60,856 nt of DNA from Bacteroidales bacterium (GTDB lineage: Bacteria > Bacteroidota > Bacteroidia > Bacteroidales > UBA1715): positions 1 to 60,856 of the forward strand of contig JAFZOY010000013.1 of assembly GCA_017552705.1 (NCBI GenBank), written 5' to 3'. This document shows, one piece after another, positions 1 through 39,666 of the stretch. Under the pieces are notes generated by a model. That model worked only from the letters and a program-made list of their open reading frames with translations. It searched no databases and had not been told where the DNA came from. Within the stretch, counting starts at the first letter, position 1; every line of letters begins with the position of its first letter. A program made the translations under genes and the position numbers.

Positions 1-1093
1 CGCGGCATTAAAAATAGCCGAAAATCTCGGAGCAACGGTTTCTGTTGATGGTGAGCAAGTTACCATTATTGGCGGACTCAAACCTAAGACGCTTACGCTG
101 AATTGCGGTGAAGCCGGTTTGGGCATACGAATGTTCACCCCGATTGCCTCGCTGTGGCACGAGGCCATTACCTTGCAAGGCGAGGGCTCGTTGAAAAAAC
201 GTCCTGTTGACGTGTTGGAAGCGCCATTACGGCAGTTGGGCGTGCAAATTTCGACAAACAACGGATTTGTTCCCGTGCAAGTGTGCGGTCCTATGCTTGG
301 AGGCTATGCCAACGTTGACGGTTCGCTGAGTTCCCAGATATTGACAGGACTTTTGATTGCCGCTCCGTACGCGCGGAAAGACGTGATTTTGTGTGTAAAA
401 GACCTGAAAAGCAAGCCGTACATTGACATCACGCTCGATATGATGAAAAAATTCGGTGTATCGGTTGGCAGACACGACTACGATTCCTTTGTGATTCCCG
501 CCGAACAAACCTATAAGGCACAAGATTTCTGCGTGGAAGGTGATTGGAGCGGAGCCGCGTTTTTGCTTGTTGCCGCCGCGTTGAATGGCGACGTTACGGT
601 TGAAAACATTTCTATGGATTCATGCCAAGCCGACAAAGCCATTGTTGACGCCTTGCTAAAAGTTGGAGCAAAGGTAGTTATCAATAATAATTCTATTTCG
701 GTTGCCCATTCCCAACTGCACGCGTTTTCGTTCGACGCCACGGAATGTCCCGACTTGTTTCCTCCGCTTGTTTCGCTTGCCGCACATTGCGATGGCGTGA
801 CAAAAATACAAGGTGTGTCACGACTTGCTCACAAGGAAAGCAATAGAGCGCTTGTGTTGCAGACAGAATTTGCCAAATTAGGCACGAAAATCGACCTCGA
901 CGGCGATACGATGATTATTCACGGAGGCACGTTGCAAGGCGGAAAAATGCACGCCAACAACGACCACCGCATTGCTATGGCTGGCGCCGTTGCCGCTTTG
1001 CTTGCACAATCATCGGTAGAAATCGAAAATCCGGAATGTGTAGCGAAGTCTTACCCTGAGTTTTGGGAGGATTTTGAGAAGATGCGATCTTAA
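1..1093 (+). CDS. aroA: 3-phosphoshikimate 1-carboxyvinyltransferase (EPSP synthase), 5' end missing
   Basis: AroA joins PEP to shikimate 3-phosphate in the sixth step of the shikimate pathway. The reading frame is already open at base 2, so the true start lies left of the window. Visible family features are the substrate-binding stretch NCGEAGLGIRMF, the hinge region with DGSLSSQ, the KPYIDIT segment, and near the C-terminus HKESNRA, NNDHRIAMA and KSYPEFW. Roughly the N-terminal fifth is missing. The stop codon shares the palindrome TTAA with the stop of the convergent gene on the other strand. A diverged second copy of this gene's last ~65 bases sits at 3956-4019, with an accessory block between the two. 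Confidence 0.95.
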   Translation, partial: AALKIAENLGATVSVDGEQVTIIGGLKPKTLTLNCGEAGLGIRMFTPIASLWHEAITLQGEGSLKKRPVDVLEAPLRQLGVQISTNNGFVPVQVCGPMLGGYANVDGSLSSQILTGLLIAAPYARKDVILCVKDLKSKPYIDITLDMMKKFGVSVGRHDYDSFVIPAEQTYKAQDFCVEGDWSGAAFLLVAAALNGDVTVENISMDSCQADKAIVDALLKVGAKVVINNNSISVAHSQLHAFSFDATECPDLFPPLVSLAAHCDGVTKIQGVSRLAHKESNRALVLQTEFAKLGTKIDLDGDTMIIHGGTLQGGKMHANNDHRIAMAGAVAALLAQSSVEIENPECVAKSYPEFWEDFEKMRS

Positions 1094-2958
1094 AACACCA
1101 TCTTCGGCAATGTTATCTTCACAGGAACTTTTTTCCCTTCAATCTCGTATGGAGTAATGTTTGGCAAAGTTTTGAATGCGTTACCGATTGCCTGTAATTC
1201 TTCTGTCATTGTAGCAATATAAAAATCCTTATAGCCCGAAGCAAAATTTAATTTAAACCTTGTTATTTCATCGCCAATAAAGTTGCTTCGTTCAACATAA
1301 ACAATTTTTCCTTCTTCGTTTATAATAACATTCAGCGTTACGGATTTTCCCATCAACGACTGCGGTTTGTTAATCTTTCCACGCACGTTGTCAATCATTG
1401 TCATATATTCTTTCTCTCGTTGATTGTCAATTATATTCATATCGAATATTTTTTTTGAAAAATCGAACGCTCCGATTTGTACGCCTTGTGAAAAAATGAA
1501 TATAGAATCTTTCGTATTGACAGGCTCGTCTTTATAAGGAGATTTTGCAGGGGTGTATTTTATGTTTTTTACTGCTTCTATGACTTCGCTTGCCGAAGAA
1601 CTACAGACATCCGTAGTATCAGTATCTATTGAAATATTATACACGTTTCCTTTTTTGGAGACTAAATACTTTATGAGAAAAAGTTTGTTCCATACGCTGT
1701 CATAGACAGGAGTAGTCGGCAAGACACAAATTTGGAACACTGATTCGGAAACAACATTGTTCTCCTTTATTTTTGCACTATTTCTTCCTAAATTGTAATA
1801 AATTGTATCATAGAGGGTATTATAACACCAACCTAAGTTGTTATCTTTAAGACTTCTTGGAACTAATTCACGATATGGCCATTTCCGTTCCCCCCACTCA
1901 TCTTGAATCTCTTTTTTTGTATTTTCTTTATACTCTTTGAACTCATATTTTTCTGATGAGGATTGGTATGGTTTAAAGTCATCCTTATACGTCCGTAAAA
2001 ACTCTTGTTTAGACTTCCCGTTTATTGACGTAATCCTATACTTAAACGACGAGGTGGGCAGAAACAAAACGTGTGGTATGTAATAAAACTCAACAGGACT
2101 TTCCTTGTCTCCGTTACTTACTATATATTCATTCGTTCCTTTCCTGCGTATCACATATTTTGTGTCGTAGGTGACATTTTCACTCCATGGTAATCCATGT
2201 GGATACACCAAAGGTCTGTTCAATTCAGAGAGACCAATGGGAAGGACTTCCTTGCGACCATATAATAAATCACTTCCATAACCGAACAAAGAGTTTGAAA
2301 TCTGTCTTTGAATCAATGATTCATTGGGTATATGCTGTATTAAAAAAGAATAATCACATATATTTTTGTAGATGTTGAAATTATATTGTGCGTAGTTGTC
2401 GTCGCAAGACTTGCACCATCGGAATATCCGCATCCAATAATATTTATAGAGTTGAACGGTTTCACCTTTGCGTATTCCTAAATATTCGTAAGAAAACAAA
2501 TAATCAACCCAACTGCTTTCGTACATGGCTGGACTACGTGTTTCATCCACAACGTCTATAACATCAGTATCTTCCCAATCTCCTACATCCATATTGCGCC
2601 AATGAAAAGCGAGATAATATATGTCCTTTGTCTCCCCATATTTAGGTAAGTCACTAATAGGAATCGTTTTATACGGCTTTACTAAAATAGATATTGCAAA
2701 TTCGGCGTGCCACAGAAACAACACGGTGTACCTGCAACTTACTTTTTGAGGCGTATGGATAGTTGGAGCAAGGTCCTTGTATAAATATGTTTCAAAATTT
2801 GGAAATACTTTCGCTATCGAAACGGTAGTATCAACCGCTAACTGAACTGTGTACAATTTGTCATATTCATCAACCATCAAAACTCCACTTCTTTGCCTGT
2901 GTGCAAGAGACGTAAGAGCAAGGTTTAATAATAATATGAAAAGAATGAGTTTTTTCAT
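1090..2958 (-). CDS. Secreted protein of unknown function with TonB C-terminal-like end
   Basis: A 622-residue protein with an N-terminal signal peptide (MKKLILFILLLNLALTSLA), so probably periplasmic or surface exposed. Most of the chain is unrecognised and rich in Tyr, Lys and Asp. The last ~80 residues resemble the TonB C-terminal fold used by many Bacteroidetes secreted proteins: a strand pattern VTLNVIINEEGKIVYVE, a helix, then a closing KKVPVKITLPKMVF. No transmembrane anchor or proline-rich TonB stalk is seen, so this is not a working TonB. Its base composition is more AT-rich than aroA. It is the first gene of the block bounded by the aroA 3' duplication and ends convergently with aroA, with a 4-base overlap. 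Confidence 0.75.
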   Translation of the reverse strand: MKKLILFILLLNLALTSLAHRQRSGVLMVDEYDKLYTVQLAVDTTVSIAKVFPNFETYLYKDLAPTIHTPQKVSCRYTVLFLWHAEFAISILVKPYKTIPISDLPKYGETKDIYYLAFHWRNMDVGDWEDTDVIDVVDETRSPAMYESSWVDYLFSYEYLGIRKGETVQLYKYYWMRIFRWCKSCDDNYAQYNFNIYKNICDYSFLIQHIPNESLIQRQISNSLFGYGSDLLYGRKEVLPIGLSELNRPLVYPHGLPWSENVTYDTKYVIRRKGTNEYIVSNGDKESPVEFYYIPHVLFLPTSSFKYRITSINGKSKQEFLRTYKDDFKPYQSSSEKYEFKEYKENTKKEIQDEWGERKWPYRELVPRSLKDNNLGWCYNTLYDTIYYNLGRNSAKIKENNVVSESVFQICVLPTTPVYDSVWNKLFLIKYLVSKKGNVYNISIDTDTTDVCSSSASEVIEAVKNIKYTPAKSPYKDEPVNTKDSIFIFSQGVQIGAFDFSKKIFDMNIIDNQREKEYMTMIDNVRGKINKPQSLMGKSVTLNVIINEEGKIVYVERSNFIGDEITRFKLNFASGYKDFYIATMTEELQAIGNAFKTLPNITPYEIEGKKVPVKITLPKMVF

Positions 2959-3079
2959 AAGACGAAATTACTCATATTTTCCAAAATCGGCAAATAATTT
3001 ATTGTTTGTATATCCTGTCTTCCAAGTCGTTTAGCCAAAATCTCTCCATTTTCCAAGAGAAAAAGTAATATGAAAATTC

Positions 3080-3110
3080 TTGACAACCGAAATAGATTGT
3101 TGTATATTTG
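3080..3110 (+). promoter_or_regulatory. Strong promoter for small RNA A
   Basis: TTGACA with its TTG at 3080-3082, a 20-nt spacer and TATATTTG at 3103-3110 match the Bacteroidetes primary sigma consensus (TTG, 18-21 nt, TAnnTTTG) perfectly. The predicted start is G3115. The same TTGACA/TATATTTGC architecture precedes RNA B (35597-35627) and RNA C (40737-40757). Confidence 0.8.
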
Positions 3111-3114
3111 CAAC

Positions 3115-3235
3115 GTCCTAGGTGAAAAATGAAGACGAAAGTTTAGAAACACGTGGGCAGAAGCCGTTAAGTCGGAAGAACTTTTAGCTACGGCGGGAAA
3201 GTTCAAAAAAGAGAATCAAACGAGTCTCTTTTTTT
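3115..3235 (+). ncRNA. Structured small RNA A, convergent with nuclease gene A
   Basis: A ~120-nt transcript bounded by a consensus promoter and an intrinsic terminator, with no convincing ORF. It is homologous to RNA B at 35468-35592 on the minus strand. Comparison gives three helices: P1 3115-3118 with 3155-3158 (GUCC/GGGC; B has GUUC/GAGC); P2 3133-3136 with 3141-3144, closed by the GNRA loop GAAA (B has GGAA); P3 3178-3185 with 3197-3204 (GAACUUUU/GAAAGUUC; B has GAGUUUUC/GAAAACUC). The P3 loop keeps GCUACGGC, whose ACGGC (3190-3194) can pair with upstream GCCGU (3163-3167) to give a pseudoknot. The compensatory changes indicate selection on RNA structure. I do not recognise a known RNA family. 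Confidence 0.7.
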
Positions 3236-3236
3236 T
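3205..3236. terminator. Bidirectional intrinsic terminator between RNA A and nuclease A
   Basis: A perfect 10-bp stem, AAAAAAGAGA (3205-3214) with TCTCTTTTTT (3225-3234), has a 10-nt loop and a T tract on both strands. It abuts the stop codon of the convergent nuclease gene, so it can serve both transcripts. Confidence 0.8.
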
Positions 3237-3918
3237 ATTTCTTTCGGCTAAACTCTTTGAACATTTTTGTAGAAAAATCTTTTGAATAAACTAAATATCG
3301 GTCTATTTCAATAAGAAATGTACCTTTAAAGAAAAAAATTATTCTTAACTCGGGGTTTTCAAAAAATGCAGTTTTAATATTCTCGGCAAGCTGTTTTATT
3401 TTAGGAGCACCCGTGAGGTTAATTGCAATTCTGTCAGCTTGTGTAGCCCCTTTTTCAAATCGATGTTCTATAGAACTCCCTCCCGTTGATGTCTTCCCTT
3501 CAACATAATATAAGCAATTTCGCTTGCGAATAATGAAATCGGCACTTTTGGTTGCTTTGGGGTTCGAGAGCAAAAACACATCATATCCGTTTGCCACAAA
3601 TTTCTGTGCTATTTGCAGATTGTTTGGTACTTCGCCCGTTTTCAATATTTCGTCATATTGATTTGTGTATAAGGTGTAAATCTTGTTTCCTGCCGTAGAA
3701 AATCGTTGTAATTCTGTAAATCCAGGCTGTGCAATAATCCATTTCAAAACTTCAACCTTTTCACGATTTGTTGAAAATGCGTAATAATCCTTCAGGGCAT
3801 TAGCAATTGTAGTTCCTTGATAAACAATAGGTTTCCCATACTCGGTTGTGGGCTCACAAACGACACTACAAATATCCTCCGTCCGCAATGGGTACGGTGT
3901 TGCTTTTTCTTTTTTCAT
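3235..3918 (-). CDS. CdiA-CT-like / PD-(D/E)XK-like nuclease domain protein, copy A
   Basis: 227 residues with no signal peptide or membrane segment, so probably cytosolic. The N-terminal ~100 residues (TPYPLRTEDIC start) belong to no family I know. The C-terminal half has a nuclease-like pattern: SADF with D127, then E140-G-K142 in YYVEGKTS, then KGATQADRIAINL with Q160 and R163. This order resembles CdiA C-terminal tRNA nuclease and MuF-associated toxin domains and fits a PD-(D/E)XK active site. An equally long paralogue lies at 34786-35469, with the shared stretches RKRNCLYYVEGKTSTGG and KPIVYQGTTI. The promoter -7 box lies a few bases before the ATG. The 3' end faces small RNA A across a shared terminator. 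Activity is inferred only. Confidence 0.7.
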   Translation of the reverse strand: MKKEKATPYPLRTEDICSVVCEPTTEYGKPIVYQGTTIANALKDYYAFSTNREKVEVLKWIIAQPGFTELQRFSTAGNKIYTLYTNQYDEILKTGEVPNNLQIAQKFVANGYDVFLLSNPKATKSADFIIRKRNCLYYVEGKTSTGGSSIEHRFEKGATQADRIAINLTGAPKIKQLAENIKTAFFENPELRIIFFFKGTFLIEIDRYLVYSKDFSTKMFKEFSRKK

Positions 3919-3925
3919 GATGTGG

Positions 3926-3955
3926 CAAAGATATTGAATAAACTGAGATAATCAA
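3926..3955 (-). promoter_or_regulatory. Near-leaderless promoter of nuclease A
   Basis: On the minus strand TTG (plus 3953-3955), a 19-nt spacer and TATCTTTG (plus 3926-3933) match the consensus. The ATG follows seven bases after the -7 box, so the transcript should begin at or just before the start codon. The paralogue at 34786 has the same spacing and the same TATCTTTGCC sequence. Confidence 0.75.
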
Positions 3956-4019
3956 AATCGAATATCCCGAATGTGTAGCGAAATCCTATCCTGAATTTGG
4001 AGAAAATGCAATCTTAAAA
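3956..4019 (+). pseudogene. Diverged duplicate of the aroA 3' end
   Basis: This stretch aligns with the end of aroA (1021-1096). In frame it reads IEYPECVAKSYPEF, against IENPECVAKSYPEF in the real gene. Several third-position differences (for example gtagcgaaatcctat against gtagcgaagtcttac) and an 11-base deletion near the stop separate the copies. It begins next to the -33 box of nuclease gene A. It marks the far edge of the block inserted after aroA and looks like a displaced original 3' end or the trace of a recombination there. Confidence 0.8.
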
Positions 4020-4119
4020 TTCAAGATTAATCAATTAGTAAAAACATTTTTGAAACCGCCTACTATTGAATGGATAAAGAATCCGTTAGGTTCATTATAA
4101 ATAAATTTCTCCATCATTG

Positions 4120-4170: not shown

Positions 4171-5430
4171 ATGGCAAAAACAGTTCCGTTCTCAAAAGAA
4201 CAAATTCAGGAAATCATAAAACAATATCCTACGCCGTTCCATATCTACGACGAAAAGGCGATAATTGAAAATGCCGAAGAACTAAAAAAGGCATTTGCAT
4301 GGAACGAAGGTTTTCACGAATATTTTGCAGTAAAAGCGGCTCCAAACCCTTATTTGATAAAACTTTTAGCACAGCATGGTTTCGGCTGCGATTGTAGTTC
4401 CTATCCTGAATTGCTCATTTCGGAACAAGTTGGAAATCTTGGCGAAAACATTATGTTTACCTCCAACGACACAGGCGACTACGAGTTCAAGAAAGGCAAG
4501 GAACTGGGCGCAATCATCAATCTTGACGACATTACCCATATTGACTATTTAGACAGAGTTGCAGGCTTGCCCGAGTTGGTTTCGTTCCGTTATAATCCGG
4601 GAAACTTGAAATCAGGAAATGCCATTATCGGAACGCCCGAAGAAGCTAAATATGGTTTTATGGAAAACCAATTGTTCGACGGCTATAAAATGTTGATGGA
4701 ACGTGGCGTGAAACGCTTTGGTATTCATACCATGGTGGCTTCCAACGAGTTGAACGAGGATTATTTTGCCGAAACAGCACGAATTTTATTTAATCTTGTC
4801 GTAAAAATTCACAAACAGTTAGGCATTCGCTTCGACTTCATCAATCTTGGTGGTGGTCTTGGCATTCCGTATCGTCCTGAGCAGAAGAAACTCGACGTTT
4901 TCAAAATTAGCGAAGGTATTCGCAAGGAATACGAAAACATTCTCGTTCCGAACGGTCTTGCGCCTGTGAAACTGTATCTGGAATCGGGACGTTTCATTAC
5001 CGGCCCTTACGGATATTTGGTAACGACAGTTCGTCACTTGAAACACACGTTCCGCGAATATGTTGGCTGCGATGCAAGTATGAACAATCTTATGCGTCCG
5101 GGAATGTACGGTGCATATCATCACATTACTGTGTTGGGCAAGGAAAATCAGCCATGCGACCACGTGTACGACGTAACTGGCTCGCTTTGCGAAAACAACG
5201 ACAAATTTGCCATCCAGCGCAATCTGCCAGAAATCGAGATTGGCGACATTCTTGCCATTCACGATGCAGGCGCACATGGTCATGCAATGGGATTCAATTA
5301 CAACGGAAAACTTCGCTCGGCAGAATTATTGCTTCGTACCGACGGTTCGGTAAAACTCATTCGCCGTGCAGAAACGGTAAACGATTATTTTGCGACGCTT
5401 GATTTCGAAGGGTTGAAATCGTTTAAGTAA
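4171..5430 (+). CDS. lysA: Diaminopimelate decarboxylase, LysA type
   Basis: A PLP-dependent group III decarboxylase of 419 residues that converts meso-diaminopimelate to lysine. The N-terminal barrel shows YFAVKAAPNPYL with the Schiff-base lysine, INLGGGLGIPY as the glycine-rich phosphate site, and LESGRFITGPYG. The C-terminal part has DVTGSLCENNDKFA, whose Cys comes from the partner subunit active site, and DAGAHGHAMGFNYNG. The sequence follows the longer LysA form (about 420 residues) found in Firmicutes and Bacteroidetes rather than carboxynorspermidine decarboxylase. The start is fixed by the promoter just upstream. A terminator follows at 5448. The other lysine genes are not nearby. Confidence 0.88.
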   Translation: MAKTVPFSKEQIQEIIKQYPTPFHIYDEKAIIENAEELKKAFAWNEGFHEYFAVKAAPNPYLIKLLAQHGFGCDCSSYPELLISEQVGNLGENIMFTSNDTGDYEFKKGKELGAIINLDDITHIDYLDRVAGLPELVSFRYNPGNLKSGNAIIGTPEEAKYGFMENQLFDGYKMLMERGVKRFGIHTMVASNELNEDYFAETARILFNLVVKIHKQLGIRFDFINLGGGLGIPYRPEQKKLDVFKISEGIRKEYENILVPNGLAPVKLYLESGRFITGPYGYLVTTVRHLKHTFREYVGCDASMNNLMRPGMYGAYHHITVLGKENQPCDHVYDVTGSLCENNDKFAIQRNLPEIEIGDILAIHDAGAHGHAMGFNYNGKLRSAELLLRTDGSVKLIRRAETVNDYFATLDFEGLKSFK

Positions 5431-6599: not shown

Positions 6600-8138
6600 T
6601 TACCGTATATCCTGAACCAAACGCACGGAGCGTCCAAGTGCACGGCTGAAGTCGGAAACAATATCAATTTTTCCTTTGTTGAACACAAAATACCATGCAT
6701 TTTCACCTCCAGAAGCAGATGCTGTCCAATAGCTACCAGTTGTACCCACGTTACCGACGGTGGTTCCATAACGGCAACCAGCAGATGGCAAGAATATCGC
6801 GCCATGTGCTTCTAATTTCTTCCACTGTTCAAGAGTGTAGTTGTTCAATTCAAAACTTGTGCGTGCAATAAAATTGATGCCGCCCGGGCAAGTCCAATCA
6901 TCAGGAAGTATCAAAAGACCTTTTACTCCATTAACTATAGCAAGTGAATACAAATTTGACGCATTCGGACGTTTCAACAACATATATCCCCATTCCGCAC
7001 GGGTAAGTGTACGCCACATTCCAGCAGAATCACCAGCTTCCGAAATCACATTTGCCACCCCCCAGTCGGCTTCAGCGAATTTGCCACGTAAGCTATACTC
7101 GTAGGTTTGTCCATCGGTTGGACCATATCCATAGCCATACGTTGCCGATGCCGATTCCGTATCGTACGGCATATAGAATGTATTTCGGTTATACCAACCA
7201 CTTGTGCCCCAACCAAACAAATCAATCCAGCCACTGTTTGACCTTGAAATATTCGTATTGTCGGCACCGATAGCATCATATTGCTGTTCGGCAAATCTCC
7301 ATGTTTTGCTACTTGCCTGATATTGCAAATTTCCTTTCGAGAAATACACCTTTTTACTTGAGCCAACGGTAAATGGAGCGATAACCGCACCGTTCTCTAT
7401 ATTGACCGCACTGCTTGCCACCTGAGGCTCAGGCATTGTTGGTTCATCAACCACAATAGGTTCCTCAACAATAGGATTCAGCGGTTCTTCAGCAATAGGT
7501 GTGCTTTGAGGTTCTTTTGCAGGAACTAACACCGGTTGTACTGGCTCAGATTGAACAGGTTCACTTTGCGGAGCATCGTTAACCACAATCGGAGTTTCCT
7601 CCTTTTTATCTTTCTTTGTGGTCTTGGTTGCTTGCTTCTTTTCTTCTTGAACCACAGGTTCTTGGCTTGATTCTGCCGCTATCGGTTGTTCTATCTGAGG
7701 ATCTTGTTTTTTCGATTTTTTCTCAACCTTTTCAGGTTCAGCCTTTTTGTCAACAACAACCACATCGTTTGTCGGTTCCGAAGATTCCTTTACTTTTGGA
7801 GCGGACGGCATCGGTTCTTGTAACGGATATGCAGAGCCGCCTTCAAAAGCATACACATACACCGTTCTCGAGCAGAAAATATCGCATGTGATAGTTGTAA
7901 GCAAAAAATCGCCAAATTTAAATTTCGACCTGATTTCGCACGGTTCATTCGGTGTATTGGCATGAGCATGTCCCAACGGAATCAATCCGCCAAACAAGTA
8001 GTATTGTTTGGATTTATCGTATTGGTAGGTTTTTAAACCTTGTTGCTCCAGTTGCTTATAATTTCCTACCGTTGTCCATGTTGTGTAACACGATGTAAAC
8101 AGGACTAACGAGATTATACATATCAATAATTTTTTCAT
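6600..8138 (-). CDS. Bor-like lipoprotein fused to a C-terminal lectin/FISUMP-like domain
   Basis: 512 residues. The start is the ATG at 8138, because the promoter -7 box (8156-8163) would put the in-frame ATG at 8147 on the first transcribed base. A signal ending LFTSCYTTW gives a lipid-anchored Cys. Residues ~20-100 resemble the phage lambda Bor/Iss serum-resistance family (YYLFGGLIPLGHA, then LLTTITCDIFCSRTVYVY). Next comes a ~130-residue low-complexity linker rich in Glu, Pro, Val and Lys. The last ~250 residues are a domain shared with the ends of the proteins at 35695-39666 and 57885-58880: KVYFSKGNLQYQAS, SGWIDLFGWGTSGW, WRTLTRAEW, GRSVRLV. That domain resembles the FISUMP/DUF1566 group. 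It is probably a surface protein. Confidence 0.8.
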   Translation of the reverse strand: MKKLLICIISLVLFTSCYTTWTTVGNYKQLEQQGLKTYQYDKSKQYYLFGGLIPLGHAHANTPNEPCEIRSKFKFGDFLLTTITCDIFCSRTVYVYAFEGGSAYPLQEPMPSAPKVKESSEPTNDVVVVDKKAEPEKVEKKSKKQDPQIEQPIAAESSQEPVVQEEKKQATKTTKKDKKEETPIVVNDAPQSEPVQSEPVQPVLVPAKEPQSTPIAEEPLNPIVEEPIVVDEPTMPEPQVASSAVNIENGAVIAPFTVGSSKKVYFSKGNLQYQASSKTWRFAEQQYDAIGADNTNISRSNSGWIDLFGWGTSGWYNRNTFYMPYDTESASATYGYGYGPTDGQTYEYSLRGKFAEADWGVANVISEAGDSAGMWRTLTRAEWGYMLLKRPNASNLYSLAIVNGVKGLLILPDDWTCPGGINFIARTSFELNNYTLEQWKKLEAHGAIFLPSAGCRYGTTVGNVGTTGSYWTASASGGENAWYFVFNKGKIDIVSDFSRALGRSVRLVQDIR

Positions 8139-8155
8139 AATGCACATTTATTTCA

Positions 8156-12504: not shown

Positions 12505-13002
12505 TTATAATTTGGGGACTAATGTTTTGTAATCTATTGAATTTTTCGTTGTATCCCATTTACCAATCTGCATTTTTTTGACTGTCCGTCCTTCTCCAAA
12601 GTCAAGCAAATCTGTCCTATTCAAATTGTTCATAATTTTATCCAAACTACCCACATCTTTTGATGAAAGGAGAAATGCTTCAAGAGGGTCACACAATTTA
12701 CAATAAGCCCACAGTTGACCTAAATCGTGAAGATTCAAAGAAGTCTTCTTTGCCTCAATGAATACTATACTTGTTTTCGTGCCTTTTTCCAACAATCCCA
12801 AAACATCAATTTGAATATCAAGTCCGACAGATTGAGGGTAATGCGAAATTACACCATTTTCTTCAAGGAAGGAATCAAGAGTTCTTGCGTGAGAATCAAA
12901 TGTAGTTACTTTCCAACCTTTATATTTGTCTTCCAAGTATTTATGAAGCCACATTCTCATAGGTTCATAAAGTTCGACCTCTTTTCTAACGTTATTCGCC
13001 AT
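12505..13002 (-). CDS. Putative PD-(D/E)XK restriction nuclease, last gene of the R-M operon
   Basis: 165 residues, soluble. The core reads SVGLDIQIDVLGLL, then IVFIEAKKTS, then LHDLGQLWAYCK, which is the D...ExK plus helix Gln pattern of PD-(D/E)XK nucleases. An upstream Glu in the first helix would complete the site. The start codon lies inside the preceding LAGLIDADG-like gene (11-base overlap), implying coupled translation and perhaps a two-subunit enzyme. The context is two DNA methyltransferases upstream on the same strand. The stretch is AT-rich compared with housekeeping genes nearby, consistent with transfer. Fold assignment is by motif only. Confidence 0.72.
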   Translation of the reverse strand: MANNVRKEVELYEPMRMWLHKYLEDKYKGWKVTTFDSHARTLDSFLEENGVISHYPQSVGLDIQIDVLGLLEKGTKTSIVFIEAKKTSLNLHDLGQLWAYCKLCDPLEAFLLSSKDVGSLDKIMNNLNRTDLLDFGEGRTVKKMQIGKWDTTKNSIDYKTLVPKL

Positions 13003-13864
13003 ATCCTAAAATTTTTGCTAAATCTGTCCAAGTTTCAAAATGCCTTCCTCTAATTTCTATAGGCAGTGCATCGTCATTTTCACAGGGGTGAATGGGTCTT
13101 TGTTTTTTCCTTATTGTTTTTTCCCAATAGAATTTATGAGTTTTTTCAGGGTCAATAAATTCAAGAAGTTCATCGGCATATTTTTCTAATGCATCTTGCT
13201 TGTGTTTAATGTTAAAGCCAATTGGAAGAAATTCATTTGCAAAGATTTTTACTTGATGTTCTTTCTTCCAAAAATACTTTTTCCCTTCATTGTATTTTTT
13301 CAAATCACCATCCCTAAAATTTGGATGTCCGAAATCTATTGTTTGAACAGGAATATCAACTGATTTGAGCATATTTGCTATATCTATCACCATGGACCAA
13401 TTTCCAGGTATTTCGATATAAACACGATGTGCCCCGTCCTGTCCAAAAGCGATATTGCTTTTTCTAATATAACCAGTAACGTCAGCAATTCCACGCAATA
13501 AAGACTTTTTTTCATCCGTTGTCATTGAAAACAATTCTTCATTCATTTTCATTGTCGAATGATGAACACCAGAACCAATCAAACGAAGTATTTCACGCAT
13601 AACGTATTCGTTGTTTGGTTTTGTAAATGTGATTTTTGTTGATGTTTGTGATTGAGTTGGAGTTAGATGTTGACCAAGCAAAGGTTCCAATATAGTTTGA
13701 ATGTCAAGCAAACTTGCCTTTACATACACAGTTACATCCTTCATATCATCTGTATACAAGTTTTTATGAGGAATATCAATTGTAACCATTGTTTCTGTTG
13801 TGCCACGCTGGATTTCTCCATTTCCGAGAATCATTCCAAGCAAATATGCCATTTCTGTGTTCAT
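12992..13864 (-). CDS. LAGLIDADG-like protein of the R-M operon, degenerate catalytic motifs
   Basis: 290 residues. Two copies of a homing-endonuclease-like helix motif are visible: MAYLLGMILGNGEI at residues ~5-18, and LLRGIADVTGYIRKS at ~120-135, each followed by beta-strand-like sequence, as in single-chain LAGLIDADG proteins. The acid that would bind metal appears as Asn in the first motif (GNG, not GDG) and Thr in the second (DVTG, not DADG), so it may bind DNA without cutting. The transcription factor WhiA is a precedent for a non-cutting LAGLIDADG fold. It lies 4 nt after the m5C methyltransferase gene and overlaps the PD-(D/E)XK gene. I infer it is the recognition part of the restriction enzyme. 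Confidence 0.65.
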   Translation of the reverse strand: MNTEMAYLLGMILGNGEIQRGTTETMVTIDIPHKNLYTDDMKDVTVYVKASLLDIQTILEPLLGQHLTPTQSQTSTKITFTKPNNEYVMREILRLIGSGVHHSTMKMNEELFSMTTDEKKSLLRGIADVTGYIRKSNIAFGQDGAHRVYIEIPGNWSMVIDIANMLKSVDIPVQTIDFGHPNFRDGDLKKYNEGKKYFWKKEHQVKIFANEFLPIGFNIKHKQDALEKYADELLEFIDPEKTHKFYWEKTIRKKQRPIHPCENDDALPIEIRGRHFETWTDLAKILGYGE

Positions 13865-13868
13865 ATTT

Positions 13869-14945
13869 TTATATTTCGTTAATTATTGAATCTGCTATTG
13901 CTTTTGCCATCAGGGGAGGAACGGCATTCCCAATTTGCTGTCTTATAGAAACCTTTGGTCCTAAAAACACAAATTTATCAGCAAATGATTGCAATCGTGC
14001 CGCCTCACGTGGCGTTATTGCACGATTCAGAAATGGATGATTATTCGTCCCATTTGAGCAAGCATCAAAACGTGTATCTATTGTAGGTGATACAGAATCC
14101 CATTTTAATCGTCCCCATGTTCCTGAAAACTTTTGTTTCCCAACAAGTTCTTTCGGCAAATGTTCTTTTCCACATTCTGGCGGTATCATTTCCAGTTTTT
14201 TTATGGCTATTGGTGCATGATTTGAGGATTTATGATTATATAGTTTTTTTGAATCTTTGCGCATCACATTTTGATATTCAGACGATATTGGTGTTGTATA
14301 GGTTTGTTCCACATCTCCTTCTCCTGAATTTAGATACGCCAAATCTGAAATAGCATCTCTTACAGTAACAATTTCTTTAACTGTTGGTTTCGGCAAATGT
14401 ATTTTCTTTGTTTTACAACATATAAAAACCGTCCTTTGTCTTGATTGAGGAACACCATAATCGGATGCAGTCAGCACACCATAATCAACATAATATCCAA
14501 GTTCAGAAATTCTTTCCAATATCTGTTTTTTAAACCATCCTGCCGAAGTAGATAATAACGCCTTAACATTTTCAATAATGAAGATATTAGGATTTAAAGC
14601 TTCCACAATCGCAAAAAACTCTCTGAACAAATAATTTCTAGAATCCTCCAACCCAAGTTTTTTCCCTTTCAGAGAGAATCCTTGACATGGAGGTCCGCCA
14701 ATTATCATATTTACATTGTATTCCTTACTTTTTTCAATGATTATTTTTTTTACATCTGAAGCTGTTATATCACCAAATACAATTTCTGTTTCTGGCATAT
14801 TGTACTTAAATGTCTTTAAAGCATTTTCATTAAAATCTGTTGCTATTTTTGTAATAAAATGCTCGTTTTTTTCCATTCCGTATGAAAAGCCGCCCGCGCC
14901 ACTGAATAAATCCAAAATTATATAATCAGCTTTGTTGTTATTCAT
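13869..14945 (-). CDS. DNA (cytosine-5)-methyltransferase
   Basis: 358 residues with the m5C motifs in order: I LDLFSGAGGFSYGME, IV GGPPCQGFS with the catalytic Cys, VI ENVKALLS, VIII RQRTVFI, then the variable target-recognition region, IX AITPREAARLQSF and X QIGNAVPPLMAKAIA. It methylates cytosine in a recognition site that cannot be read from sequence. Its start overlaps the upstream adenine methyltransferase stop by 4 nt (ATGA). The gene is not next to the vsr gene at 23.9 kb. Confidence 0.95.
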   Translation of the reverse strand: MNNNKADYIILDLFSGAGGFSYGMEKNEHFITKIATDFNENALKTFKYNMPETEIVFGDITASDVKKIIIEKSKEYNVNMIIGGPPCQGFSLKGKKLGLEDSRNYLFREFFAIVEALNPNIFIIENVKALLSTSAGWFKKQILERISELGYYVDYGVLTASDYGVPQSRQRTVFICCKTKKIHLPKPTVKEIVTVRDAISDLAYLNSGEGDVEQTYTTPISSEYQNVMRKDSKKLYNHKSSNHAPIAIKKLEMIPPECGKEHLPKELVGKQKFSGTWGRLKWDSVSPTIDTRFDACSNGTNNHPFLNRAITPREAARLQSFADKFVFLGPKVSIRQQIGNAVPPLMAKAIADSIINEI

Positions 14946-15964
14946 ATCGTTTTGTTCCTGATTAAAATTCTTTTGAATTGTTCTTTGCCATTTATAATAG
15001 GCTTAAATATATCGTATTTGCTGTCAGAACCGTGATTTGCTTCTCCTATTATCTCAAATTGTTCAGAATTATATCGGTTTATAATCGTAATAGGCACTCC
15101 CATAATTCCCTGATAATCAAACGGGATCTCAGTAATATTGCGTATATGTATAGCATCATAGTTGTCGTATTTAACATGAATCTCTGGATTAAAACTTTTT
15201 ATTAACTTCAATGTTTCATGTCGCCTTTCATTGTCAAGATTTGTAAGCCACATAGCATTACCAAGACTACGCCACTTTTGTCCTGTTTCATCAACCCAAT
15301 ATCTTGTAGAACGAGGTTCTGAATCAGAAGGGACACGGAATTTCATTTCTCCAAACTGATACCCCGTCCAAATTTCTCCATTTTGTATCAAAGGGAATAT
15401 GTCTTTGTACGTCAATGCATTTTGATTTCCAATAATAAGGAAATTCTTTTGATATTTTCTTATTTCTAATACAAAATCATTAAACAATGAAAACGGCGGA
15501 TTTGTAACAACAATGTCACATATTTTTAAATTCTCAACACACTCTTTGCTTTTAAAATCACCATCACCCTCTAATTCTCGTACAACTCCAGATGTCTGCA
15601 AATAATTTTCAACAAATTCATCAGAGATATTCAACTCTCCATTTTTTATTTCGGTAATGTCAAGGATTTTTCCGTGTTTGCGGTTTGAACATTCATAGAT
15701 AGACGTAAACAAATCTATCTGAATTGTATCAGATGGTTCGTATGAAGTACAAATTAACCGCTTTAAGCCTAATTTATTGAAATTTTTCAAAAAAAATTTA
15801 CAAAAGTTTGACTTAAAAGGATTATCACAATTACAAAGGACTATTTTTCCATTGAATTGTTCTCTATAATGAGAAACCTCATCTTCAATTGTTTCATACG
15901 TTGTATAAAACTCATCGAATCGTTTTTTTTTTGCTTTATGCAGATTGGTGTTTTTATTTGCCAT
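14942..15964 (-). CDS. Adenine-specific DNA methyltransferase, EcoRI-methylase family
   Basis: 340 residues, similar to the EcoRI modification methylase family (N6-adenine). Visible signs are the start KKKRFDEFYTTYETIEDEV, the SAM-region NCDNPFKSNFCKFF, the catalytic TNPPFSLF (motif IV NPPF), and QFGEMKFRVP and STRYWVDETGQKWRSLGN. First gene of a four-gene operon with its own TAACTTTG promoter. Having both an N6-adenine and a C5-cytosine methylase implies either a recognition site needing a different base methylated on each strand, or two merged systems. Confidence 0.88.
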   Translation of the reverse strand: MANKNTNLHKAKKKRFDEFYTTYETIEDEVSHYREQFNGKIVLCNCDNPFKSNFCKFFLKNFNKLGLKRLICTSYEPSDTIQIDLFTSIYECSNRKHGKILDITEIKNGELNISDEFVENYLQTSGVVRELEGDGDFKSKECVENLKICDIVVTNPPFSLFNDFVLEIRKYQKNFLIIGNQNALTYKDIFPLIQNGEIWTGYQFGEMKFRVPSDSEPRSTRYWVDETGQKWRSLGNAMWLTNLDNERRHETLKLIKSFNPEIHVKYDNYDAIHIRNITEIPFDYQGIMGVPITIINRYNSEQFEIIGEANHGSDSKYDIFKPIINGKEQFKRILIRNKTI

Positions 15965-34785: not shown

Positions 34786-35469
34786 ATGAATGAAGAAACA
34801 GCAACACCGTACCCACTGAGGACGGAAGATATTTGTGATGTCGTTTGTGAACCTACATCCGACTATGAGAAACCTATTGTATATCAAGGAACTACGATCA
34901 ACAAAGCCATAGCAGACTATTATACTTGTAATACAAACAAAGATAGAGTCACCATTTTACAATGGATAGTAGAACGCACGGAATTTCAGGAATTACGACG
35001 TTTCTCCACGAATGAAAATGCCGTATATGGATTGAACATCAGTCAATACGATGACATTCTTCTTTCTGGAGAAATGCCGAATAATCTTGCAATAGCCCAA
35101 AAACTTGTGACGAACAAATTTGACGTATTCTTGCTTTCAAATCCAAATTCCACCAAAAGTGCGGATTTTATTCTAAGAAAACGAAACTGCTTATATTATG
35201 TAGAAGGAAAAACCTCCACTGGTGGTAGTGCACTCGTTCATCAATTGGGAAAAGGAGCGAAACAGGCTAACAGAATTGTCATTGACTTTATTGCATTACC
35301 CAAGACAAGAGACATAACCCAATTAATACAAAGTACGTTTAACAACCATATAAATCTTGTGGAACTAATGCTATTCAAAGGGAAATCTTTGATATCCATT
35401 AAACGAAAAGACTATACAGCAAAAGATTTTGCAAAAAGATTCAAGCAATTATGGTATAAAACAAAATAA
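34786..35469 (+). CDS. CdiA-CT-like / PD-(D/E)XK-like nuclease domain protein, copy B
   Basis: 227 residues, a co-linear paralogue of the protein at 3235-3918 with about half of its residues identical and no length change. Conserved blocks are ATPYPLRTEDIC.VVCEPT, KPIVYQGTTI, NNL.IAQK, DVFLLSNP..TKSADFI.RKRNC, LYYVEGKTSTGGS and KGA.QA.RI. Divergence concentrates in the region 45-90 and the last 50 residues. The putative active-site D...ExK (SADF, VEGK) is kept. One Asp of the A copy's QADRI becomes Asn here (QANRI). It ends tail to tail with RNA B across a shared terminator, as copy A does with RNA A. No classical immunity gene is beside it. Confidence 0.7.
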   Translation: MNEETATPYPLRTEDICDVVCEPTSDYEKPIVYQGTTINKAIADYYTCNTNKDRVTILQWIVERTEFQELRRFSTNENAVYGLNISQYDDILLSGEMPNNLAIAQKLVTNKFDVFLLSNPNSTKSADFILRKRNCLYYVEGKTSTGGSALVHQLGKGAKQANRIVIDFIALPKTRDITQLIQSTFNNHINLVELMLFKGKSLISIKRKDYTAKDFAKRFKQLWYKTK

Positions 35470-35495
35470 AAAAGGGATTTCACAACCCCTTTTTT
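35468..35495. terminator. Bidirectional terminator between nuclease B and RNA B
   Basis: AAAAAAGGG (35468-35476) with CCCTTTTTT (35487-35495); T tracts on both strands. Its sequence differs from the terminator at locus A but it occupies the same place, starting inside the nuclease stop codon. Confidence 0.8.
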
Positions 35496-35592
35496 AATGA
35501 GTTTTCTTGCCGTAGCCGAAAACTCGCACGAACTTAATCGGCACTTGCTCGAATGGTTCAGGGCTTCCGCCTTTATGTTGATACATAAGAAC
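35468..35592 (-). ncRNA. Structured small RNA B, convergent with nuclease gene B
   Basis: A ~125-nt minus-strand transcript homologous to RNA A. Helices (plus coordinates): P1 35592-35589 with 35550-35547 (GUUC/GAGC); P2 35572-35569 with 35564-35561 around the GNRA loop GGAA (AGGC/GCCC, first pair open); P3 35525-35518 with 35506-35499 (GAGUUUUC/GAAAACUC). The P3 loop GGCUACGGCAA carries CGGC (35512-35509), which can pair with GCCG (35542-35539). Compared with RNA A, two P3 pairs and one pair each in P1 and P2 changed on both sides. A 30-codon ORF (35586-35494) exists but has no intact counterpart in RNA A. Function unknown. Confidence 0.7.
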
Positions 35593-35596
35593 GTGG

Positions 35597-35694: not shown

Positions 35695-38600
35695 CTAATT
35701 TGCATTTTTTACAAGGCGGACAGATCGCCCCATGTAGCGATTGTAGGAGCTCGTGCCCACTTTGCTTTTGAAAGTCAGATAGCTGCAAGCCGTACTCGAC
35801 CAGTAGAGGCCGTAGGAACCCACACTGACCACGTCTGTCCCTTCGCGGTGGCCGGCAGCAGGAAGAAACACGGCACCGTGGGCTTCCATCTTTGCCCAAT
35901 CAGCAGTTGAATATGTGTTCTGTGCGAAATTGCCGTCTCCACTTATGAATGTTAAACCGTTTGGCAATGTCCAGTTGTTGGGCAACAATATAAGGCCAGT
36001 AACGTCGTTAACGGTCGCAAAGCCTTTCTTGCTTGAAGCATCGGTTCTTGTATTTATGAGAAACTCCCATTCGTCTTTTGTAAGCGTCCGCCACTGTCCC
36101 GCTTGGTTGCCTCCGTTGGAAATGGCGTTGTACACGCCCCAATCATAGTTCGTGCCTGCTATATCATTGTTGCCATCACCATAATCGGAATAATCCGTGC
36201 TTGTCATATACGGATTTTTGCCATTGTAACCACTGGTTCCCCAACCGAATAGGTCTATCCAACCGCTATACGAACTTGAGATGTTGGAATTGTCGCTACC
36301 AATAATATCATATTGGTGTCCGGCAAAACGCCATGTACTTGTGCTTGCTTGGTATTGCAGGTTGCCTTGAGAGAAAAGTACTTTTTTATTATAACCAACA
36401 GAAAAAACAGCACCTATTATAGCACCTGTTGCCGGCGGTGTTGTCACAACTATTTGTTCACTGTACCCTGTTCCAAAAGAGTTTACGGCATACGCACGAA
36501 CATAGTAAGTCGTTTCTGGTGCAAGTTCATCAATCGTCATTTCAAAATCATCGCCTTCAACGGCTTTTTTAGTACTTTCTACCGTTGGATTTTCGGTTGT
36601 CGCGTAGCAAAACCCTTTTTCAGTAATTTCCAGACCGCCGTTTGAAGTAATTTCAGACGAAACTGTGAACGAAGTTTCTCTAATATAGGAACTTGTAATA
36701 TCCGCAATTGTTGCAGCCATAACCAATGTAGTTATTGAAGTTTGTTCGCTGTACGCTGTTCCAACAGAGTTCACGGCATACGCACGAACATAGTAAGTTG
36801 TTCCTGGTGCAAGTTCGTCAATTGTAGCTTCAAACTCATCGCCTTCAACGGCCTTTTTAGAATCTTCAACCGTTGGATCTTCGGCTGTAGAGTAGCAGAA
36901 GCCTTTTTCGGTAACTTCCGTACCGCCGTTATTGGTGATTTCAGATGAAACCTTGAATGAAACGGCTGTGAATTCGGAACTTGTTACATCAGCAACCGTT
37001 GCAAGAGTAATAGCAGTGGTTGTAACCGTTATCTGGTCGCTATACGAAGTTCCTGCGGAGTTCGTAACGTATGCACGAACGTAGTAGGTGGTAACTGGAG
37101 AAAGTCCTGTTATTTCGGCACTTAAATTTTCTCCTGAAACCACAACTTTAAAACAGTCAATCGTAGGATTTTCGGTTGTAGAGTAGCAGAAACCTTTAGA
37201 AGACACGCCGCCGCCATCGTCAGTAATTGCGGCAGTCACCTTGAACGACTTGCCTGCCACTTCGGTGGCTGTTGGAGTTCCCACCGTTGCAGGAAGGCAC
37301 AATGTAGTTACAGTATATGTACTGCTATATGTCGTACCTTTTGAATTTGTCGCAAATGCACGAACGTAGTAGGTTTTTCCCGGTTGCAAACCGCTTTTGG
37401 TTGCCTCAAAGTCTGTACCCTCCACATCAACCGTTACTTTGTCGTTAGAAGTGGTAGGTGTTTCTGTTGTACTTGAATAGCAGAATCCCCATTGGGTAAT
37501 CTGCGCCTCGAACCGCACGCTTGCTTGCATTTTAAACGATTCAGCGGTAACGTCGCTATAACTGCTGGAGTAAATCATAGGAGCCATAAGCGTGGTGTTG
37601 ACAACAAGCGGCTCGCTGTAGCCTGTGCCAGTGGTGCTGGTTGCGTAGGCACGGATGTAGTATGTGTAGCCCGAAGCCAACCCATACCAACCGCCGGTAT
37701 AATTTTCGTCAACAGCCGTACCCGTAGCAACATATTTCTTTTCGTTGTCAGCCACCGTAGGGTTTGGTGTTCTTGAGCAGACAAACCCACGTTCGATTAT
37801 GTCGCCAAAACCAGCCGAAGTAATTTTTGCATAAATAGTCACCTCCACGTCTTCCATTCCAGAAAGCGTAGGTTTTGAAAGTTTCGGGTTCTTAGAAGCA
37901 TCAACCCAATCACTCAAAGCGGCAAACCGTTCGTTCATTTCAGCCAACAAGGCATCAACTTCGGCTTTCGAGTAGTAGCCGTCCAAATTTGTAGTGCCAA
38001 TTTGGCTTTTCAGCACGTATGCGTCGAGGGTGTCGTTCATTTTGGCTGTGGTAGGATAAACAGAAAGCGTATCCTTCATTTTTGCAGTAGTTGCGTAGCC
38101 AGTCAAATCAGTTGCAGGAACATCGCTCAATGTAATGTAGTTTGCATCGTTGGCAAGGTCGCTCACTTTGGTTGGAACGGTTGGAATCTCTATAGCAGCA
38201 ACTTTCTCATTTACATACGTTTCGCTCGCCAAACCTTCCACGCTTGGAATGTTCAACGCGTTCAACTCTTCTTTTGTCGCATAGGCACTCAAATCTTGTG
38301 CGGCAGGAATTTTGCCTTCCAATTCGGCAAGAGCAGCAGTCACATCAGATGATTTTGCATACACGCTCAAATCAACAGCGTCAGCTTGTCCGCCAGAAAG
38401 CACGTAGGTTTCAAATTCATCCTTTGTTACATACGTTGCCGAAACGTCGGCTGATTTTGCGTAGTCCGTTAAATCAGTGGCAGGCACATCGCTCAACGTG
38501 ATGTAGTTTGCGTCGTTTTCAAAATCGCTCACCTTGGTTGGAACCGACGGAATCTGTATAGCCGCAACTTGCTCATTTACATACGTTTCGCTTGCCAAAC

Positions 38601-39666
38601 CTTCCACGCTTGGAATGTTCAACGCGTTTAATTCCTCTTTTGTCGCATAGCCCGTCAAATCTTGTGCAGGAACATCGCTCAACGTGATGTAGTTTGCATC
38701 GTTGTCAAGGTCGCTCACTTTGGTTGGAACGGTTTCAGATTTTGCATAAACCGACAACGTGTCATTTAATTTTGCTGAAGTCGCAAAGCCGCTCAAATCC
38801 TGTTCGGCGGGGATTTTCCCTTCCAGTTCGGCAAGAGCCGCATTCACGTCGGATGATTTCGCATACACGCTCAAATCAACCGCGTCGGCTTGTCCGCCCG
38901 AAAGCACATAGTTTTCAAATTCCTCTTTTGTGACATAATTTCCCGAAACCTCGGTTGATTTTGCGTACACGTTCAAAGTGTCGTTCATTTTTGCCGTTGT
39001 AGCAAAGCCGTCCAAGTCCGATTTCTTTGCATAGTCGCTCAGGTCAACCTCAGTTGGAAGTTCGTCCTTTTTAGCGTAGGTCTGTTCCACGTCGGCGGTC
39101 TTGGCGTAATCCTCAAGAGTTGCGGGCATTTCCGCCTTTTTCACGTAGGTGTTGTCAACGTCGGCTGACTTTGCGTAGTCGTTCAACTCCTCTGTTTTCA
39201 CATAACCGTCGAGGTTCGCGCCTTCGGGGATGTCCGATTTCTTGGCATAATCCGTCAAATCGGGCACGTTGCCAGCTTTTTCGGCAAACTTCGCATAAGG
39301 AACCGTAAGCATTGGCGTTACGCCTGTAACGGTTTTGCCGTCGATTTCGGCAACAGTCTTCACGAAATACGGACCCGCGCTCCAGTCAATCTGCGAGAAC
39401 GCCGTTTCGGAGATTTGTTCTCCGTTTCCCAACTCCAACGAAACCAAACCGTTGGCATTGGTGGTTGCGTCGTGTTTTTCAGCATACACCACGTCGCCCT
39501 CGTCGGAACCTTGGAGAATGCTCAATTCAATACTTACAGCCTTTGAAACCACAAGGGCGTTGTCGGCATCGCGCACTACGCCTTGGTAGCTCATTGTCTG
39601 CGGAACTTGTGCGAACGTCAGGAACGCCAGAATCGCCATTGCTACTGTTAAGATAATTTTCTTCAT
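35695..39666 (-). CDS. Giant secreted surface protein: tail-fibre-like repeats, Fn3-like repeats, C-terminal lectin/FISUMP-like domain
   Basis: 1323 residues. The signal peptide ends ILAFLTFAQ. Residues ~20-135 are the Bacteroidetes domain starting VPQTMSYQGVVRDADNALV and ending LTVPYAKFAEKA, typical of proteins with phage-tail-like stalks. Residues ~135-590 are tail-fibre-like repeats (YAKKSDL, VSDLDNDANYITLSDVPA, YATKEELNALNIPSVEGL). Residues ~590-1080 hold about five Fn3-like repeats with KGFCYSTTENPT and TTYYVRAYAVNSVGT. The last ~230 residues are the domain shared with the proteins at 6600 and 57885. No T9SS sorting signal is present. Its 68-nt gap to the upstream T9SS cargo gene suggests one operon. 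The role is probably adhesion or surface display. Confidence 0.8.
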   Translation of the reverse strand: MKKIILTVAMAILAFLTFAQVPQTMSYQGVVRDADNALVVSKAVSIELSILQGSDEGDVVYAEKHDATTNANGLVSLELGNGEQISETAFSQIDWSAGPYFVKTVAEIDGKTVTGVTPMLTVPYAKFAEKAGNVPDLTDYAKKSDIPEGANLDGYVKTEELNDYAKSADVDNTYVKKAEMPATLEDYAKTADVEQTYAKKDELPTEVDLSDYAKKSDLDGFATTAKMNDTLNVYAKSTEVSGNYVTKEEFENYVLSGGQADAVDLSVYAKSSDVNAALAELEGKIPAEQDLSGFATSAKLNDTLSVYAKSETVPTKVSDLDNDANYITLSDVPAQDLTGYATKEELNALNIPSVEGLASETYVNEQVAAIQIPSVPTKVSDFENDANYITLSDVPATDLTDYAKSADVSATYVTKDEFETYVLSGGQADAVDLSVYAKSSDVTAALAELEGKIPAAQDLSAYATKEELNALNIPSVEGLASETYVNEKVAAIEIPTVPTKVSDLANDANYITLSDVPATDLTGYATTAKMKDTLSVYPTTAKMNDTLDAYVLKSQIGTTNLDGYYSKAEVDALLAEMNERFAALSDWVDASKNPKLSKPTLSGMEDVEVTIYAKITSAGFGDIIERGFVCSRTPNPTVADNEKKYVATGTAVDENYTGGWYGLASGYTYYIRAYATSTTGTGYSEPLVVNTTLMAPMIYSSSYSDVTAESFKMQASVRFEAQITQWGFCYSSTTETPTTSNDKVTVDVEGTDFEATKSGLQPGKTYYVRAFATNSKGTTYSSTYTVTTLCLPATVGTPTATEVAGKSFKVTAAITDDGGGVSSKGFCYSTTENPTIDCFKVVVSGENLSAEITGLSPVTTYYVRAYVTNSAGTSYSDQITVTTTAITLATVADVTSSEFTAVSFKVSSEITNNGGTEVTEKGFCYSTAEDPTVEDSKKAVEGDEFEATIDELAPGTTYYVRAYAVNSVGTAYSEQTSITTLVMAATIADITSSYIRETSFTVSSEITSNGGLEITEKGFCYATTENPTVESTKKAVEGDDFEMTIDELAPETTYYVRAYAVNSFGTGYSEQIVVTTPPATGAIIGAVFSVGYNKKVLFSQGNLQYQASTSTWRFAGHQYDIIGSDNSNISSSYSGWIDLFGWGTSGYNGKNPYMTSTDYSDYGDGNNDIAGTNYDWGVYNAISNGGNQAGQWRTLTKDEWEFLINTRTDASSKKGFATVNDVTGLILLPNNWTLPNGLTFISGDGNFAQNTYSTADWAKMEAHGAVFLPAAGHREGTDVVSVGSYGLYWSSTACSYLTFKSKVGTSSYNRYMGRSVRLVKNAN
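37930..39260 (-). repeat. Mosaic internal repeats of the surface protein gene
   Basis: Near-identical DNA blocks recur, for example the EELNALNIPSVEGLASETYVNE block at ~38220-38283 and ~38585-38649, and the SGGQADAVDLSVYAKSSDV block at ~38350-38410 and ~38850-38915. The offsets differ (366 and ~500), so units were shuffled or duplicated more than once. Such DNA can change length by slippage or recombination. Confidence 0.75.

Follow-up and report, generated by a model that had tools for sequence, protein, structure and literature searches.

Why does the 3' end of aroA occur twice, on either side of a block of other genes, at one locus of a Bacteroidales bacterium? The locus lies at the start of contig JAFZOY010000013.1 (assembly GCA_017552705.1), whose positions 1 to 60,856 are called the window here, meaning the whole stretch of 60,856 nucleotides that was analysed. 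A block of 2.9 kb occupies the aroA–lysA interval. Probably, this block joined the chromosome by recombination at aroA, and it carries what would be a toxin-like nuclease and its RNA antidote, captured from the MuF toxins of phages. The features of the aroA–lysA interval that bear on the repeat are as follows.

2–1093, plus strand: aroA (EPSP synthase; PF00275, E 9e-83), 5' end outside the window, 3' end intact
1020–1095, plus strand: aroA 3' end copy 1, within the gene, from sequence comparison
1090–2958, minus strand: secreted protein of 622 amino acids, family unassigned, probably cargo, with homologues in genomes G001 and G004
3955–4019, plus strand: aroA 3' end copy 2, diverged, with an 11-nt deletion, beyond the nuclease promoter, from sequence comparison
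4020–4090, no strand: stretch from aroA copy 2 to the lysA upstream region that is common to relatives
4171–5430, plus strand: lysA, the next gene after the block

The ungapped pieces at 1020–1068 and 3955–4003 were 84% identical, the second pieces at 1071–1095 and 3995–4019 were 88% identical, and the 11-nt deletion in copy 2 parts both pieces. In a whole-genome search, copy 2 was the sole other strong match to the last ~75 bases of aroA (E 1.9e-9), and the duplication at 3956–4019 that a first-pass annotation of this DNA had claimed is real. Six of the eight substitutions between the copies were synonymous, compared with about 20% expected (binomial p=0.0012), indicating that both ends diverged while coding, as the same annotation had proposed. 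Copy 2 today has the deletion and no upstream gene. The window aroA has a C-terminal tail in common with copy 2 (AAAATGCAATCTTAA compared with AAGATGCGATCTTAA), and the six genus relatives are without this tail. The synonymous bias and the private tail in copy 2 suggest that a single aroA lineage gave rise to two alleles, which diverged as genes before they came together at one locus. Sliding identity was also tried as a sign that the window aroA 3' end is foreign; identity to G004 fell to 77% in the last full 60 bases, and equal falls elsewhere made this not conclusive.

Each relative has one aroA end, and none carries the RNA/nuclease block at aroA. Neither block-free relatives that keep the second copy nor a block fixed across the whole family, the two cases that the first-pass annotation had named against its own proposal, were encountered. 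G002 has 8.4 kb of unrelated genes between aroA and lysA, and in G004, the closest relative, aroA and lysA are on different contigs. No strong match to bases 4020–4090 was found in the 14 genomes searched for their source.

The secreted open reading frame (ORF) of 622 amino acids was 98.7% identical at the DNA level to the G001 gene and 93% to the G004 gene, whereas aroA was only ~70% identical to aroA of G001, which indicates that the block, or at least the secreted gene, was acquired recently. The matching stretches (window 1090–2958, L148 6550–8419, L149 6573–8429) lie in unrelated places and stop at the ends of the ORF, as if moved gene by gene. The rest of the block consists of RNA A (plus strand) and the convergent nuclease A (minus strand), which have one terminator in common. 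The secreted protein, RNA A and nuclease A that had been annotated between the copies are thus all present, and the block contains no integrase, as had been stated.

Instead of a scar of acquisition, the repeat could be an artefact of the assembly or an old tandem duplication, given that this metagenome assembly has 160 contigs and repeated units and that the breaks of two contigs fall within the conserved part of the nuclease. However, no other full-length copy in the genome was more than 75% identical to nuclease A, a divergence too great for a collapse there; the divergence of the aroA ends is mostly synonymous and the cargo was recently transferred. We regard this alternative as unlikely.

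The other insertion sites were compared with the relatives. Six sites that hold a unit in the genome of the window (sufB, asd, mraZ, ileS, dgt and kpsF) were without one in all six genus relatives, as far as the corresponding positions were found. The sufB insert also carries a small zinc-ribbon gene. A clean empty site was found at dgt (G000:C125 compared with G004:C86), where the flanks are contiguous in G004 and the unit sits just after the stop codon. Apart from unit A at aroA, no duplicated flanking gene end was seen in the units examined, both flanks being compared where possible. The absence of other duplicated ends and the dgt insertion after the stop codon indicate that gene-end duplication is not how such units insert. 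The dgt end (MYRWLQTE) was considered as a second gene-end duplication and rejected, because in every relative the protein has MYRKIKGISFSVIR, or nearly the same residues, at its end.

These sites also bear on an integrase-type element that would use the aroA 3' end as its attachment site and leave the 65-bp copy as the displaced end. The gene-end repeat does flank the block, and GATAATCAAAA, the module end next to copy 2, recurs as the end of some other units, but the block lacks an integrase, the other units examined have no gene-end repeat and the dgt unit inserted without a duplicated end. Such an element is quite unlikely. The first-pass annotation had offered two origins: recombination with a foreign aroA, which the synonymous bias and the recent gain of DNA favour, and an element bringing a replacement end, which fails as a general mechanism because no other unit examined has a duplicated end. 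The comparison supports the repeat being a recombination scar at this site, with an order of events that we infer as follows. A diverged aroA with attached DNA would have recombined into the chromosome at aroA–lysA, the displaced allele would have left its 65-bp end at 3955, and the incoming block would have brought the probable cargo gene and a two-part RNA/nuclease unit. There are two such units in the window.

3080–3110, plus strand: promoter of RNA A, TTGACA followed by TATATTTG at 3103–3110, kept at most units
~3111–3238, plus strand: RNA A (proposed RNA antitoxin), with 5' domain of type I, pseudoknot, and terminator shared with the nuclease gene 3' end
3163–3204, plus strand: H-type pseudoknot of RNA A, stem 1 at 3163–3166/3191–3194, stem 2 at 3178–3184/3198–3204
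3235–3918, minus strand: nuclease A, 227 amino acids, CdiA-CT-like PD-(D/E)XK, from the fold model and invariant residues
3926–3933, minus strand: -7 box of the nuclease A promoter, TATCTTTG on the minus strand, from sequence
34786–35469, plus strand: nuclease B of the second unit in the window, 56–58% identical to nuclease A
35470–35596, minus strand: RNA B, convergent with nuclease B, with 5' domain of type III

The nuclease was found at 12 places in its own genome, with seven genes intact and several broken, and in five of the six other genus genomes with one to eight matches each. It was not found in the 92 other genomes of the order. The covariance model of the RNA, R1, matched exactly the same six genomes as the nuclease, and the named assemblies are gut Bacteroidales of sheep, yak and similar hosts. 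Each of the 23 intact nucleases has a convergent RNA at its 3' end, one of these RNAs being cut by a contig end, and the RNA is a single copy without tandem repeats at every unit. The first-pass annotation had named RNA A and nuclease A but had missed their functional pairing and their membership of a repeated unit. A promoter-pattern search of the own genome, run with the spacer wrongly set, gave only two other sites. The searches of Rfam (window, gathering score), NCBIfam and PADLOC assigned no family, and plasmid searches gave no match.

The RNA outlasts the nuclease. The nuclease was deleted and the RNA kept at G000:C46, G004:C12, G002:C91, G001:C25 (123.5 kb), G000:C5 and G001:C21, the last two RNAs being weaker; it was frameshifted at G002:C55 and G001:C25 (3.7 kb), and split by what is probably an insertion sequence at C18/C99. 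About eight sites in total keep the RNA after loss of the nuclease, and no intact nuclease without the RNA was seen among the units found in the genus genomes. Retention of the RNA after nuclease loss, and never the reverse, is the pattern expected of a toxin and its antidote. The probable insertion sequence, with ends TGGTCAAAATGAGACC, runs over the end of L036 (G000:C18) and the start of L041 (G000:C99). Three proteins of the window (6600–8147, 35695–39666 and 57885–58880) have a paralogous C-terminal domain (SKxWRFAxxQYDxIG...SVRLVxD); unit B and the unit of C68 adjoin genes with this domain, and the flanking DNA is common to both.

The RNA is ~115 nt long, with a 5' domain that occurs in four types and a 3' domain that is an H-type pseudoknot. 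Over 24 sequences, 92.9% of cells in the pseudoknot were paired, compared with 75.5% when shuffled, double changes numbered 70 compared with 22.7 in shuffles, and the covariation was 0.62 compared with at most 0.18 when partners were slid. The sequence of stem 2 differs in nearly every class, and each pairs with its own partner; over 17 classes, phage RNAs included, the value was 6.6 with the own partner and 3.9 with swapped partners (p 1e-5). This covariation shows that the predicted pseudoknot is conserved. Variation in the RNA 3' domain was correlated with that in the nuclease C-terminal part (Mantel rho 0.38, p 0.0005) and not with that in the N-terminal part (Mantel rho 0.03). The two correlated parts adjoin each other on the DNA, so that linkage, as well as co-adaptation, may account for the correlation.

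Two other roles for the RNA were weighed. In type I-like antisense control, the RNA would repress translation of the nuclease mRNA, a role with which the convergent genes, their overlapping 3' ends and the pair layout at every unit agree. The predicted duplex with the cognate mRNA start had an energy of -25.4 kcal/mol, however, compared with -25.2 for non-cognate and -26.8 for shuffled pairs, in a comparison that covered the mRNA start, and conservation of the pseudoknot points to a structural role, which leaves antisense control highly improbable. Alternatively, the RNA could be a guide or cofactor of an RNA-dependent nuclease (omega-RNA/TnpB-like) in a unit that spreads by homing. Multi-copy units, private insertion sites, the clean empty site and the way the RNA type tracks the nuclease C-terminus would fit. 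However, the 3' part of the RNA is a fixed structure with a terminator and no variable guide region, the nuclease has the fold of a toxin RNase, the same domain tips phage head proteins, the RNA is kept after nuclease loss and neither a consistent target nor a consistent end sequence emerged, so this alternative is very unlikely. Most likely, the RNA neutralises its nuclease, as judged from their association, the covariation and the retention of the RNA. It would bind the cognate nuclease and block it, as an RNA antitoxin or immunity factor.

D127, E140, K142 and Q160 are invariant in the nuclease alignment. The AlphaFold2 model of nuclease A had a predicted local distance difference test score of 80 and a predicted template modelling score of 0.78. 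Its best fold match was 4g6v, CdiA-CT of Burkholderia pseudomallei 1026b (Foldseek E 9e-4), with a structural match of Z 9.5 over 114 residues and a next best of 6.9. No ToxN-type chain was among the fold-search matches listed, a list that does not rule out a ToxN-like fold. The model shows a predicted PD-(D/E)XK nuclease of the CdiA-CT tRNase fold. The CdiA-CT toxin of 4g6v cleaves tRNA-Ala (PMC9086364), and the nuclease of the units is probably toxic, probably by cutting tRNA, as far as its modelled fold indicates.

Similar arrangements occur elsewhere in the genome. In L043 (G000:C83, 141–621) and L047 (G000:C78, 4420–5030), the same promoter type precedes an RNA with a ~30-nt hairpin (CGGTCTGAGCCCTGAGGGACTCTAACCG and a diverged form) and a terminator. 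These RNAs face a further nuclease of CdiA_C-like type (PF18451, E 0.01) in convergent orientation and may belong to a second RNA/nuclease family; virus searches with this short RNA type were without result. In L044 (G000:C87, 2624–3293), the same promoter is followed by an RNA that resembles tRNA in its 7-bp end stem (GGCTACC/GGTAGCC) and has a T-arm-like part, convergent with an ORF of 175 amino acids of unassigned family and with a reverse-transcriptase-like gene upstream.

The nuclease domain is the C-terminal tip of MuF-type head proteins of Bacteroidota phages, and the RNA lies beside it. Phage vB_RanS_PJN03 was the sole match to the nuclease among phage records (40% identity, E 1e-34), at the C-terminus of a protein encoded near the portal gene. 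The phage name suggests Riemerella as the host; the record gives no host. The protein matched PHROG head morphogenesis with E 5.8e-137 and Pfam Phage_Mu_F with only E 0.25, and the RNA model had a convergent match directly beside the nuclease domain (E 1.7e-11). Two related viral contigs likewise have a MuF-type protein and the RNA. When viral contigs were scanned with a 15-nt motif of the RNA, 26 of them were retrieved, ten with a significant R1 match, one of which was already known from the protein side. In all ten, this nuclease domain adjoins the RNA in convergent orientation, in most cases as part of a long head protein. Two scans of the viral contigs with nuclease patterns found nothing, or only two contigs already known. 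Agreement of the RNA-motif scan with the protein search means that the nuclease/RNA link in phages was found from both sides. In L255 and its relatives, a further conserved domain precedes the nuclease in the phage MuF proteins.

The phage proteins have the head-morphogenesis N-terminus, the gene position near the portal and the toxin-like C-terminus. In the window units, the MuF N-terminal domain is absent, and the stand-alone proteins of 227 amino acids align to the phage toxin domain only. Because the nuclease domain tips phage head proteins and has the RNA beside it there, the chromosomal units are probably captured phage cassettes of toxin and RNA immunity, which would have spread by recombination and would let the cell tolerate related toxins.

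Several observations weigh against parts of this account. All genomes are metagenome assemblies, and some frameshifts and breaks may be errors. The first-pass annotation had suggested a search for an empty site with a single aroA end like the 3956 copy, and no aroA site with an end of the 3955 type was found among the relatives. The RNA 3' domain adjoins the code for the nuclease C-terminal part, and their co-variation could be linkage. Nuclease A was only 17% identical to 4g6v, the target following from the fold alone, and the matches to Pfam CdiA_C (PF18451) scored 16.5 and 19.9 bits against a cut-off of 26.6 (E 0.01 to 0.0009). Six of the ten viral RNA matches are near-identical relatives. 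Some phage loci have a small conserved ORF (77–79 amino acids) beyond the RNA, possibly a separate protein immunity.

We tentatively propose, with the balance tilted slightly the other way, that RNA immunity forms a class of its own, in which MuF-type phage toxins and stand-alone nuclease toxins would be neutralised by a convergent pseudoknotted RNA in place of an immunity protein, possibly a mimic of the tRNA substrate, and the orphan RNAs would form an immunity collection against phage toxins. If this is true, a toxin with small-RNA immunity escapes gene annotation, and the biology of type III toxin–antitoxin systems is joined to phage-borne toxins. With 17 diverse RNA classes and matching nucleases, specificity would be open to simple swaps. 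The aroA end repeat would be the footprint of the entry of a unit and its cargo into conserved gene neighbourhoods. Elsewhere in the window, a cluster at 12505–15964, in which a cytosine methylase is accompanied by other ORFs that probably encode DNA-modification proteins or nucleases, was recognised by eye as a likely restriction–modification locus.

Compared with known systems, the unit differs from type I toxin–antitoxin systems in that antisense pairing with the toxin mRNA start is not supported here. No RNA immunity for polymorphic toxins was found in the literature searched, where the immunities described for these toxins are proteins. AbiF/RCd22 and AvcID (PMC12373285, PMC10511110) likewise have a protein toxin neutralised by a noncoding RNA partner, but their proteins (AbiF/Cas13-like and deaminase, respectively) and RNAs are different, and a link to phage heads is not described there. 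CdiA-CT of B. pseudomallei 1026b (4g6v; PMC9086364) is the closest solved fold, with the D and ExK motif kept; its immunity is the protein CdiI, whereas no CdiA delivery protein is present here. The MuF polymorphic toxins of temperate phages (PMC5576092; Bxa, PMC11699363) also have a head protein next to the portal whose toxin domain, at the C-terminus, is variable. Their reported or proposed immunities are small proteins (PMC5576092, PMC11699363), whereas here an RNA is the conserved partner, and toxin domains occur on their own, scattered through a bacterial genus. Type III toxin–antitoxin systems (ToxIN, CptIN and TenpIN; PMC5086642) similarly pair a nuclease gene with an adjacent structured RNA that has an H-type pseudoknot, the terminator lying between the two or at the 3' end, and their RNA class matches the toxin class. 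In type III systems, the RNA lies upstream of the toxin on the same strand in one operon, with a terminator between them (PMC5086642), and the antitoxin consists of tandem repeats, whereas the RNA here is convergent, with its own promoter, and occurs as a single copy. The nuclease probably also differs, given its modelled PD-(D/E)XK CdiA-CT fold. By analogy, the unit may work like a type III toxin–antitoxin system, while operon order and tandem repeats place it outside that type.

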